Source: Phenylobacterium sp. (GTDB lineage: Bacteria; Pseudomonadota; Alphaproteobacteria; Caulobacterales; Caulobacteraceae). From it: a DNA stretch of 64,000 nucleotides. The stretch is from the NCBI GenBank assembly GCA_018001015.1, contig JAGNIV010000011.1, forward strand, positions 60,147-124,146, in the 5' to 3' direction. The number at the start of each line of letters is the position of its first letter. Position 1 is the first letter of the stretch. A program made the translations under genes and the position numbers. The notes under the pieces were generated by a model. It was not told the origin of the DNA and did no database searches. It saw nothing but the letters and a program-made list of their open reading frames with translations. This document shows, one piece after another, positions 12,890-28,826 of the stretch.

Positions 12890-12901
12890 AATAGGGCGGC
12901 C

Positions 12902-13177
12902 CTTCTCCCCTTGCGGGCGAAGGTGGCCGGTCGGAGACCGGTCGGATGAGGGGTCGCACTCGGTTTCCTCAGCCGTCATCCTCGGGCTTGGCCCGAGGAC
13001 CCATGATCTCCGTCCTTCCGCAGATCGCGCGTACGTCGCCGCTGCGGGCCAACAGCACCACGGTGTTTATGGGTCCTCGGGACAAGCCCGAGGATGACGG
13101 TGGTCATTTGGACAGGGCTATCAACCCCTCATCCCACCCTGCTCCGCAGGGCCACCTTCTCCCACAAGGGGAGAAGG
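12902..13177. repeat. Nested REPIN-like element: outer family A pair around an inner family B1 pair
   Basis: The outer arms are inverted copies: the left starts CTTCTCCCCTTGCGGGCGAA and continues with a GGCCGGTCGGAGACCGG hairpin and GATGAGGGG, and the right (13125-13177) runs CCCCTCATCC to AAGGGGAGAAG. Between them (12974-13100) lies a second pair of inverted arms, GTCATCCTCGGGCTTG at the left and CAAGCCCGAGGATGAC at the right, each itself a hairpin around CCTCGGG/CCCGAGG. The element fills the gap between the convergent trxA and the toroid protein gene. Confidence 0.85.
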
Positions 13178-13180
13178 GCC

Positions 13181-25275: not shown

Positions 25276-25351
<76 letters not shown>

Positions 25352-25354
25352 TAA

Positions 25355-25390
25355 CGGCCGCTTCCCACCGGAAGCGGCCGTTTCCATTTG
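25355..25390 (+). terminator. Rho-independent terminator after tRNA-Ala
   Basis: CGGCCGCTTCC and GGAAGCGGCCG form a strong perfect stem with a short loop, followed by TTTCCATTT. It starts four bases after the tRNA 3' end. Confidence 0.85.
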
Positions 25391-25430
25391 GGGGTGTCGG
25401 TCAGGGCGCACGGCATCGCCGCCCCACGCC

Positions 25431-25643
25431 GCTCATCCCGGCGAAGGCCGGGACCCAGATTCATCTCAGGCTTTCGATCAGGACCCCGTTTGTGTGGTTC
25501 GTGAGGTTCGTGGTTCCAATTCTTCCGGCCGTGACGCCACAGAGGCCCATCAGATTGACCACGAACCTCACGAACCTCACGAACGGTGGATCATCCCCGA
25601 CGTGAGGAGGTGAATCTGGATCCCGGCCTTCGCCGGGACGAGC
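25431..25643. repeat. REPIN-like family B2 element with a different inverted repeat nested inside
   Basis: The outer arms are GCTCATCCCGGCGAAGG at 25431 and CCTTCGCCGGGACGAGC ending at 25643 (one mismatch). Inside, GGTTCGTGAGGTTCGTGGT (25496-25514) is the exact reverse complement of 25558-25576. That inner arm is itself a near tandem repeat of GGTTCGTG. This element fills most of the 363-base gap between tRNA-Ala and the oxidase at 25715; no gene was seen in the gap. Confidence 0.85.
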
Positions 25644-25714
25644 GGGAGGGGTGATATCTGTCGCTCCAAGCCCAGCCCTTCTGATGCTATTCTCCACCAT
25701 CGAGAGGAGCCAGC

Positions 25715-26299
25715 ATGTCCATGTACCATCAGGGTCAACGCGACCTGCAGGACGCCTTCAGCAGCCGCGCCCTGGCCGACCGGCTGGACGAGACCCTGCG
25801 CCACGACCAATTCACGGAGCGGGACGCGGCCTTCATCGGCGAGCAGAGCTTCTTCTTCCTGGCGACGGCTGACGATCAGGGGCGCCCCGACTGCTCCTTC
25901 AAGGGTGGGTCTGCCGGTTTCGCGCGGGTCATCGCGCCGGATACGCTGATCTTCCCCGACTATGACGGCAACGGCATGTTCCGCAGCCTGGGCAACCTGA
26001 CCGCCAATCCCAATGTCGGCCTGCTGTTCCTGTCGGTGGGCGAGCGGCCCCAGCGCCTGCGGGTCAACGGGACCGCCGAAGTCGTGGCCGATGACCCACT
26101 GCTGGCCCAAATCCCCGGCGCCCAGCTCCTGGTGCGGGTGACGCCCCGCGACATCTTCCCCAACTGCCCGCGCTACATCCCGACCCTGACGGTCACCGCC
26201 CCCTCGGTCCACGCCCCGGAGGCCGACAAGCCGATGGTCGAGGCCGACTGGAAGACTTTCCCCATGTTCGCGGACGTGGTCCCGCCGCGACGAGTCTAG
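25715..26299 (+). CDS. Pyridoxamine 5'-phosphate oxidase-fold (split-barrel flavin) protein
   Basis: The 194-residue protein has the split-barrel pattern seen in PNPOx-like proteins: FFFLATADDQGRPDCSFKGG (residues about 46-65), FPDYDGNGMFRSLGNL and NPNVGLLFL. Members bind FMN, F420 or haem; this subgroup is usually called pyridoxamine 5'-phosphate oxidase family without a proven substrate. The ATG at 25715 has GAGAGGAG just upstream. It ends convergently with rpiB, overlapping by four bases. True vitamin B6 oxidase activity is unlikely to be deducible from this. Confidence 0.8.
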   Translation: MSMYHQGQRDLQDAFSSRALADRLDETLRHDQFTERDAAFIGEQSFFFLATADDQGRPDCSFKGGSAGFARVIAPDTLIFPDYDGNGMFRSLGNLTANPNVGLLFLSVGERPQRLRVNGTAEVVADDPLLAQIPGAQLLVRVTPRDIFPNCPRYIPTLTVTAPSVHAPEADKPMVEADWKTFPMFADVVPPRRV

Positions 26300-27399: not shown

Positions 27400-27654
27400 A
27401 TGACACCCAATCTTACAGCTGAAGCCTTCGCCGCCCTCGGCGGTCCCGATCTCGTCTATGTGCGCCCGATCAAGGCCGCCGAAATCATCGCCTCGACCCC
27501 GGCCGCCCAGATCGAGGGCTTCAAGCTCGATCCGGACCAGACCCTCTACGCGGTTCACCGCGCCGATGGCGAACGCCTGGCGGTGATGACCGACAAGGAC
27601 AGCGCCGTCGCCGCCGCCCTGGCCCACGAACTGGCCCCGGTGTCCGTGCACTAA
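27400..27654 (+). CDS. DUF1150 family protein
   Basis: The ATG at 27400 has AAGGAGGT at 27386-27393. The 84-residue product (MTPNLTAEAFAALGG) has the features of DUF1150, a small alphaproteobacterial family commonly found next to hsp20. It contains YVRPIKAAE and LYAVHRADGERLAVM. No motif indicates an enzyme. The 45-base gap to hsp20 and lack of a terminator suggest it is part of the heat-shock transcript. Confidence 0.82.
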   Translation: MTPNLTAEAFAALGGPDLVYVRPIKAAEIIASTPAAQIEGFKLDPDQTLYAVHRADGERLAVMTDKDSAVAAALAHELAPVSVH

Positions 27655-27712: not shown

Positions 27713-27839
27713 CGTCATCCTCGGGCTTGTCCCGAGGATCCATAGACTCCGCGCCGGCCCGACGCGCAGAGCCGCGCCGCCGCACCCTTTCCTCAGCCTC
27801 TGAGATCATGGATCCTCGGGACAAGCCCGAGGATGACGA
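27713..27839. repeat. REPIN-like family B1 element, left flank of the GIY-YIG gene
   Basis: Two hairpins in inverted orientation bound the element: CGTCATCCTCGGGCTTGTCC at the left and GGACAAGCCCGAGGATGACG at the right, forming a perfect inverted repeat of about 31 bases. About 65 bases lie between. The right end is 12 bases from the ATG of the GIY-YIG gene. The near-identical copy at 28206-28333 is in the same orientation. Confidence 0.9.
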
Positions 27840-27851
27840 AGGGGGTGAGGA

Positions 27852-28247
27852 ATGAGCGCGAGAAATGCGGTCTACATCATGGCCAGCGGCAAGCACGGCA
27901 CGCTCTATGTCGGCGTCACCAGCGACCTCATCGTCCGCGTCAGTCAGCATCGCGAAGGGACAAAGGCTGGCTTCACCTCGCGCTACGACGTGAAGCATCT
28001 GGTCTGGTTCGAGCGCCACGAGGGGATTGTCGACGCCATCCAGCGGGAAAAGTCCCTGAAGCGCTACAATCGCGCCTGGAAGATCAATCTCATTGAACGA
28101 GACAATCCCAATTGGGACGATCTCTACGAGGGTCTGTTTGCCGCCCCGCCCGGCCCGCTTTCCCATCTCAATCCGGGCGTGACCCAGGCCGAACAACCCT
28201 CACTTCGTCATCCTCGGGCTTGTCCCGAGGATCCATACACTCCGTGA
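27852..28247 (+). CDS. GIY-YIG superfamily nuclease, flanked by REPIN-like palindromes
   Basis: The 131-residue protein has a single GIY-YIG domain (residues 5-95) of the UPF0213/YhbQ-like type. Key positions are Tyr8 (VYI), Tyr19 (LYVG), Arg29, His33, Glu66 (QREKSLK) and Asn73, followed by RAWKINLIERDNP and a conserved W-DLY. All catalytic positions look intact. The last 13 residues are translated from the right-hand palindromic element, where the stop codon lies, so the natural C-terminus was probably replaced. The gene is bracketed by two copies of the same element, which suggests it travels or works with these palindromes. Its cellular role is unknown. Confidence 0.85.
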   Translation: MSARNAVYIMASGKHGTLYVGVTSDLIVRVSQHREGTKAGFTSRYDVKHLVWFERHEGIVDAIQREKSLKRYNRAWKINLIERDNPNWDDLYEGLFAAPPGPLSHLNPGVTQAEQPSLRHPRACPEDPYTP

Positions 28248-28333
28248 ATCCGCAAAGGTTCACGCCCGCGCCGCCACACCCTCTCCTGAACCTCTGAGAT
28301 CATGGATCCTCGGGACAAGCCCGAGGATGACGA
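28206..28333. repeat. REPIN-like family B1 element, right flank of the GIY-YIG gene
   Basis: The left hairpin starts CGTCATCCTCGGGCTTGTCC inside the 3' end of the GIY-YIG gene, and the right hairpin GGACAAGCCCGAGGATGACG ends 29 bases before the ptsN stop. The interior shares stretches such as CGCCGCCACACCCT and CCTCTGAGATCATGGATCC with the left copy. Direct orientation relative to the copy at 27713. Confidence 0.9.
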
Positions 28334-28361: not shown

Positions 28362-28826
28362 CTAGGCCGCGCTGGAACGCGCTTCCTGCACCAGCAGGGC
28401 GTGGATGGCGTCGGGCGTGCGGGCCTGGCGCAGTTGTTCCCGCAGATCGGCCTGCCGCAGAAGGCGCGACACCCGGGCCAGGGTCCGCAGGTGTTCGGTC
28501 GAGGCGTTGGGCGGGGCGAACAGGGCGAAGATCAGGTCCACGGGCTGGTCATCGACCGACTCGAAAGCCACCGGGTGGTCCAGGCGCACGAACACCGCGC
28601 GCATCCGCTGCAGGCCCTCCAGGCGGGCATGGGGCACGGCGACGCCGTAGCCGACGCCCGTGGAGCTGGCGGCTTCCCGTTCGGCCAGGGCGTCGAGGAT
28701 CGAGCCCGCGTCGAGGTCGAACTGCCGCGCGGCGATCTCGGAGACCACGGCCAGGACCTGGCGCTTGTCGAGGGCGCTGACACGCGGCGCGATGGCCGCG
28801 CGTTCCAGAATCTCACCGATCAACAT
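28362..28826 (-). CDS. ptsN: PTS nitrogen regulatory IIA protein (EIIA-Ntr)
   Basis: This 154-residue EIIA domain accepts phosphate on His66 in GVAVPHARLEG, with the usual pocket residues in FALFAPPNAS and HLRTLARVSRLL. EIIA-Ntr does not import sugar; it regulates nitrogen, potassium and (p)ppGpp responses by its phosphorylation state. It follows hpf on the minus strand (78-base gap), as in the conserved rpoN-hpf-ptsN cluster. Confidence 0.93.
   Translation of the reverse strand: MLIGEILERAAIAPRVSALDKRQVLAVVSEIAARQFDLDAGSILDALAEREAASSTGVGYGVAVPHARLEGLQRMRAVFVRLDHPVAFESVDDQPVDLIFALFAPPNASTEHLRTLARVSRLLRQADLREQLRQARTPDAIHALLVQEARSSAA

Follow-up and report, generated by a model that had tools for sequence, protein, structure and literature searches.

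The locus and its palindromic elements

The window, by which we mean the whole 64,000-nucleotide stretch of DNA analysed here, contains a gene for a predicted GIY-YIG nuclease with a REPIN-like element on either side (Table 1). The gap that holds it is convergent because the flanking DUF1150 and PtsN-like genes lie on the plus and minus strands respectively. The two elements are 126 and 127 bp long and are direct repeats of one another at an offset of 493-494 bp; the ATG of the nuclease gene is 13 nt downstream of the left element, after position 27838, and the last 13 codons plus stop are encoded by the right one. An earlier note on this DNA had described a 131-residue GIY-YIG gene between two palindrome pairs with perfect inverted ends of about 31 bases, a start codon about 12 bases from the left element, a final 13 residues and stop within the right element, and a convergent gap between DUF1150 and ptsN, and the coordinates agree with all of this, the arms being fully complementary over 31 nt in both elements.

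Table 1. Features of the GIY-YIG locus and related elements in the window
Feature	Position	Strand	Remarks
Left REPIN-like element	27713..27838	+	Pair of CGTC-tagged REPs in head-to-head orientation; perfect ends of 31 nt around a 64-nt spacer
REP unit in left element	27713..27743	+	Outward CGTC tag, stem ATCCTCGGG, loop CTTGT, tail CCAT; from fold of the 31-mer
Inverted REP copy in left element	27808..27838	-	Tag faces the gene
GIY-YIG nuclease gene	27852..28247	+	131 aa; predicted domain at residues 1-96
Right REPIN-like element	28206..28332	+	Direct repeat of left element
Third REPIN-like element, same family	12974..13099	+	Sequence match and fold
DUF1150 gene, left neighbour	27400..27654	+	PF06620
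PTS EIIA-2 / PtsN-like gene, right neighbour	28362..28826	-	TIGR01419, 134.3 bits, just under the cut-off of 138.7

When folded alone the 31-mer leaves four bases (CGTC) unpaired ahead of a 9-bp stem, a CTTGT loop and a CCAT tail, so that each arm is itself a hairpin and each of the window elements is a head-to-head REP dimer. Both the left and right elements fold far better than shuffled sequences (z = -10.5 and -9.9). Palindromes elsewhere in the window, also reported in the earlier note, include the third dimer, and a REP 20-mer, with as many as 3 mismatches allowed, matches seven times in the window (0.01 expected) and 16 times in the 4.0-Mb source genome, with none there for a reversed control. 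The REPs at all three window sites form head-to-head dimers, and the source genome as a whole contains six dimers and two single REPs. These are REPINs in the sense of two inverted REPs with a spacer that are dispersed in the genome, although classical REPINs are present in far more copies. The third dimer is nested within a second element with different inverted arms (window 12898-13180; 57 nt, 84%, of the CCTTCTCCCC type). At another position in the source genome (L221, contig C53) two same-strand REPs are 805 bp apart and have at least ~45 bp of neighbouring sequence in common, as if a stretch plus its REP had undergone duplication.

The window palindromes fit the CGTC-tagged REPs of Di Nocera et al. 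2013 (PMC3733652), whose main text describes a superfamily with an unpaired CGTC (or TGTC/CCTC) tag, a stem of 8-9 bp starting AT, a loop of 4-5 nt and a CCA tail, mostly arranged as head-to-head dimers; it is known from five phyla and includes dRS3 of Neisseria and RPE-4 and RPE-6 of Rickettsia. The window copy has the unpaired tag, a 9-bp stem, the 5-nt loop, the CCA tail and the dimeric arrangement. Longer loops occur at other loci, and in other genomes the proportion of REP units in dimers ranges from 0 of 23 (G008) up to 30 of 38 (G132). Common to the loci is an end code that reads [C/T]GTCA at one terminus and CCA at the opposite one; stems and loops vary between loci and are often identical on both sides of one gene.

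The only Pfam match of the nuclease is PF01541 (47 bits, cut-off 22.6), and the Pfam search finds no Y1/HUH transposase domain in the protein. There is no NCBIfam match, and the likeness to Slx1 and UPF0213 proteins is limited to fold matches; I-TevI is among the structural matches. In 36 subfamily sequences G21, R29, H33 and E66 are invariant and Y8, Y19 and N85 nearly so, a set whose catalytic role we take from I-TevI and UvrC work. The earlier note had described the catalytic residues as intact, and the domain together with its conserved residues predicts a GIY-YIG nuclease. Values of dN/dS between 0.02 and 0.16 in 13 gene pairs, some with members in common, point to purifying selection on the gene. 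At four other loci (L052, L064, L094 and L017) the open reading frame extends into the right hairpin as it does in the window, with tails such as APDPRVKPEDDG, and there the hairpin is predicted to encode the C-terminus of the nuclease.

Association of gene and palindromes across genomes

Loci were drawn from three sources: one bacterial family, probably Caulobacteraceae, in which 87 of 149 genomes have the gene (30 loci plus the next 60 places by rank); the phylum, with the gene in 71 of 299 genomes at E <= 1e-20 (30 loci); and a named genome collection (the best 80 loci). The resulting 200 loci comprise 193 distinct genes, 182 of them with 300-bp flanks, and a gene was scored as sharing its flanks if an exact repeat of at least 15 nt was common to both. 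By this rule 132 of the 182 share (60/85 in the family, 21/26 in the phylum and 51/71 in the named collection), or 111 if inverted repeats alone are counted. Displacing both windows outwards abolishes the sharing (0/175 at 500 bp and 0/170 at 1000 bp), and among random pairs of different loci 625 of 20,000 share an inverted repeat. Control ORFs at the same loci share in 7 of 393 cases, all seven of them starting or ending no more than about 600 bp from the nuclease gene, and those away from the element do not share at all (0/121); neither do 20 long GIY-YIG ORFs (630-710 aa) that we took as UvrC. The link between gene and palindromes is therefore general.

Where one genome has at least two loci, 35 of 47 loci share a repeat between their own flanks as against 6 of 70 cross-locus pairs, so that each gene in a genome tends to have its own hairpin pair. 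Hairpin type, assigned in three classes to 90 of the 193 genes, follows a protein tree that is weakly resolved and to which near copies contribute, with 23 changes compared to a shuffled mean of 41 (0/200 shuffles as low); for the family set alone (38 rows) there are 8 changes, where 300 shuffles average 15.2 and never fall below 10. A Pfam-only sample of the order, in which 27 of 29 new loci were scored and two known repeats omitted, has a shared repeat at 11 of 18 subfamily genes (at least 60 bits with the A1 profile) and at 3 of 9 other GIY-YIG genes. Three order-level genes outside the subfamily (L253, L266 and L273; A1 profile scores of 27-51 bits) have other repeats on their flanks, CTCATCCTGAGG at L266 for example, and the link may therefore be wider than the subfamily.

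No shared flank repeat was found at 50 of the 182 loci; 25 of these, inspected by eye with only the first perfect hairpin per flank listed, have a tagged hairpin in one or both flanks. Orthologues in fixed positions lacking palindromes had been named in the earlier note as evidence against a partnership. Three syntenic, fixed-position loci (L009, L011 and L038) go part of the way, having no matched hairpin pair, yet each has one tagged hairpin upstream.

Compared with a typical insertion sequence the gene is rare in plasmid records (32 of 72,556; one query, E <= 1e-12) and absent from phage records (0 of 50,697; one query, E <= 1e-8). Of 12 loci taken from the 32 plasmid-collection records, several of which are chromosome-sized (e.g. 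2.2 Mb for L207 of Neisseria gonorrhoeae and 4.9 Mb for L217 of Aeromonas caviae), eight share flanks by the 15-nt rule: Neisseria gonorrhoeae, Rhizobium sp. CIAT894, Sphingobium, Sinorhizobium (two), Shinella, the cyanobacterium Planktothrix and Novosphingobium. The Aeromonas (14 nt) and Spirosoma (Bacteroidota, 11 nt) loci have tagged hairpins on both sides as judged by eye only, and those of Rhizobium tumorigenes and Photobacterium have nothing common to both flanks.

Palindrome numbers also track the gene. The pattern GTCAN{3,8}GGRCTTGTYCC matches 712 times in the 149 family genomes (the reverse pattern, 48 times), with 663 matches in the 87 gene-bearing genomes and 49 in the other 62. Among the 31 genomes with at least five palindromes 29 have the gene (Fisher 2e-6), and permutation within genera gives p ~0.005 for the palindrome sum and ~0.014 for the count; palindromes thus concentrate in gene-bearing genomes. 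Independence of palindrome number from the gene, a further outcome that the earlier note considered adverse, does not hold overall but is seen locally, in that G088 (18 palindromes) and G111 (6) have no subfamily gene by searches that included a profile. The G088 palindromes are mostly single REPs with mixed stems and look like a decaying population. Fewer than five palindromes of the searched type are present in 58 of the 87 gene-bearing genomes. In six of nine hand-chosen genomes the commonest stems include one that adjoins a gene; in G003, G043 and G083 the common stem is not beside the subfamily genes examined.

The sister species G132 is 91% identical to the source genome over 7.2 kb and has an extra gene (L037) next to one of the 11 dimers in which its two stem types are mixed; one of these dimers has a variant stem. 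The source genome has one such mixed dimer, at C76, and its four subfamily genes are not close to L037 (49-72% identical). Upstream of the element G132 carries ~8 kb extra (L223 2866-11016) relative to window ~25350-25720, and is otherwise collinear.

Mobility of the hairpin-gene-hairpin unit

The simplest unit consists of a hairpin, the gene and an inverted hairpin, and the double-REPIN layout of the window is a compound form. Compact units of this type, 357-459 bp in length, account for 15 of the 21 units measured, and the remaining six are 561-668 bp. As in insertion sequences, there are terminal inverted repeats around a gene in a unit that can be multicopy, features that are not present at every locus.

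Genome G017 contains two copies of a 418-bp unit that are 90.6% identical over 436 bp in unrelated flanks, with similarity ending 3 and ~14 bp past the tags; the second copy looks frameshifted. Five pieces of a unit are present in G012 (complete on C39, with others on C14, C24, C17 and C18), and these are 96.8-98.8% identical to the C39 unit except for one C14 stretch at 92.1%. Because the C24, C17 and C18 pieces end at contig ends, halves may belong together, and four is the safe copy number. In the C14 copy ~93 bp of the gene are missing from between two AACAAG words, and in C39, C24 and C14 the 3' similarity runs ~38 bp beyond the hairpin before giving way to three different contexts.

Orthologous sites with and without the unit are also found. 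The L042 unit is absent from the corresponding site in G097, G127 and G078, and matches spanning the empty junction occur in at least 16 genomes. No target-site duplication is visible at L042, the one clean filled/empty pair; families of transposable elements that make no target duplication exist. At the L064 site three species carry the element (G078, G131 and G087) and three others lack it (G122, G140 and G103). At one Caulobacter site there is a full unit in L056, both ends with the gene gone in G086, a different gene-less pair in G146 and a single hairpin in G064. The simpler reading of the direction is from gene-bearing unit to REPIN. These copies, empty orthologous sites and gene-deleted derivatives show that the whole hairpin-gene-hairpin unit moves.

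Proposed mechanism and alternatives

We think it probable that this is a very small mobile element, analogous to the RAYT/REPIN system and built around an unrelated enzyme, in which the hairpins are cut by the element's own nuclease. Such an element family would have a stand-alone GIY-YIG nuclease as its sole gene and CGTC-tagged hairpins in inverted orientation as its ends. The nuclease would recognise its own element's hairpins in DNA that is single-stranded or has formed a cruciform, much as Slx1-like GIY-YIG enzymes act on branched DNA, and would then cut adjacent to them. The unit so cut would be released or copied and would land in intergenic gaps without leaving a visible duplication of the target, and gene-less REP dimers (REPINs) and single REPs would be internal-deletion derivatives moved in trans. 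The known GIY-YIG enzymes are hydrolases, so joining would need host repair or a ligase; we know of no strand-transfer activity in this enzyme class. A RAYT-like partnership of gene and palindromes, as the earlier note had envisaged, is supported both by the statistics and by the presence, absence and copy number of whole units, and the further proposal that the enzyme moves, copies or cuts the palindromes is one that we infer, as we do its action on folded DNA and the joining chemistry.

A homing-type spread has a small chance of being the correct account. Here the nuclease would be a free-standing homing endonuclease with REPs as landing sites, cutting resident REPs or REP-flanked DNA so that host double-strand-break repair between REPs copies the gene in. 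The GIY-YIG fold and the structural match to I-TevI are in keeping with this, as are compound loci such as that of the window, where the gene lies between whole REPINs, and the orthologous Caulobacter sites, where the full element is replaced in some genomes by a different REPIN or by just one hairpin. It fits poorly, however, with the complete hairpins at both ends of the compact units, with relatives that have no REP at the site of the L042 unit, and with the finding that the loci of one genome mostly have their own stems.

Rather improbable, to our minds, is that the nuclease serves the host by trimming or clearing REP hairpins or by cutting REP transcripts, with regulation keeping the gene beside REPs that some other activity moves. 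Strong purifying selection, orthologues in fixed positions, and the low plasmid presence and lack of phage matches (one query) would all suit a host gene, but the multiplication of whole gene-containing units in G012 and G017 and the patchy occurrence of the gene in 87 of the 149 genomes of one family argue against it. We consider it very unlikely that the gene is a passenger, riding along as RAYTs or other transposases move the palindromes in trans: Y1 transposase matches do occur in the source genome (one), in G132 (one) and in G043 (three), but nine of 12 REP-bearing genomes examined have none and the stretches fetched around the five Y1 loci of the other three contain none of the CGTC hairpin forms searched for, which makes RAYTs unlikely movers, and a passenger would not readily explain why hairpin type tracks the protein tree. 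Coincidental occupation of REP-rich intergenic gaps, for which the preference of REPs for such gaps (main text of PMC3733652) might speak, is extremely unlikely, since in the sets examined it is contradicted by the controls with displaced windows, other ORFs, uvrC-like genes and cross-locus pairs of the same genome.

If it is the nuclease that moves the palindromes, a second, unrelated enzyme class has evolved the REP/REPIN arrangement, GIY-YIG nucleases gain a role as the sole enzyme of a bacterial transposable element, and there is an explanation for many small multicopy genes whose sole annotation is "GIY-YIG nuclease family protein". The RAYT/REPIN systems (REPtrons, with GTAG REPs) resemble the present one in architecture, with REPs on either side of a small enzyme gene and with REP dimers dispersed in the genome; they differ in that the enzyme here is GIY-YIG rather than Y1/HUH, the tag is CGTC rather than GTAG, and whole units can be multicopy. 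Free-standing homing endonucleases of the I-TevI type likewise consist of a single mobile GIY-YIG nuclease gene, whereas here there are hairpin ends, gene-less derivatives and insertion into unrelated sites. The structure-specific nuclease Slx1 and the UPF0213 proteins are also among the closest known systems.

The window elements have the same tag, stem, loop, CCA tail and dimer habit as the CGTC-tagged REPs of PMC3733652. That paper reports no transposase for those REPs, which have stood in print since 2013 as REPs without an enzyme, whereas here a dedicated nuclease gene lies between them. Because the gene moves together with matched hairpins it may be the partner that the CGTC REPs, a common class of dispersed bacterial repeats, have long lacked; if the nuclease does move them, the missing-enzyme question gets a directly testable answer. 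Among the papers listed by searches of one literature library there is no earlier link between GIY-YIG genes and such palindromes, and the word GIY is absent from the main texts of PMC3733652, PMC12306157, PMC6006769, PMC5082802 and PMC5896051. We are evenly divided on the broader proposal that the CGTC REP superfamily as a whole (here the alphaproteobacterial REPs, dRS3, RPE-4/RPE-6, and look-alikes in a cyanobacterium and a Bacteroidota record) is mobilised by stand-alone GIY-YIG nucleases dedicated to that task, which would make these enzymes a transposase class that reached the REP/REPIN way of life independently of RAYTs. As a separate observation, at four Rhodopseudomonas loci (L144, L150, L178 and L179) the repeats adjoining GIY-YIG genes contain GAGATTCCGG, which is part of Br-REP1 of Bradyrhizobium as given in the published text.
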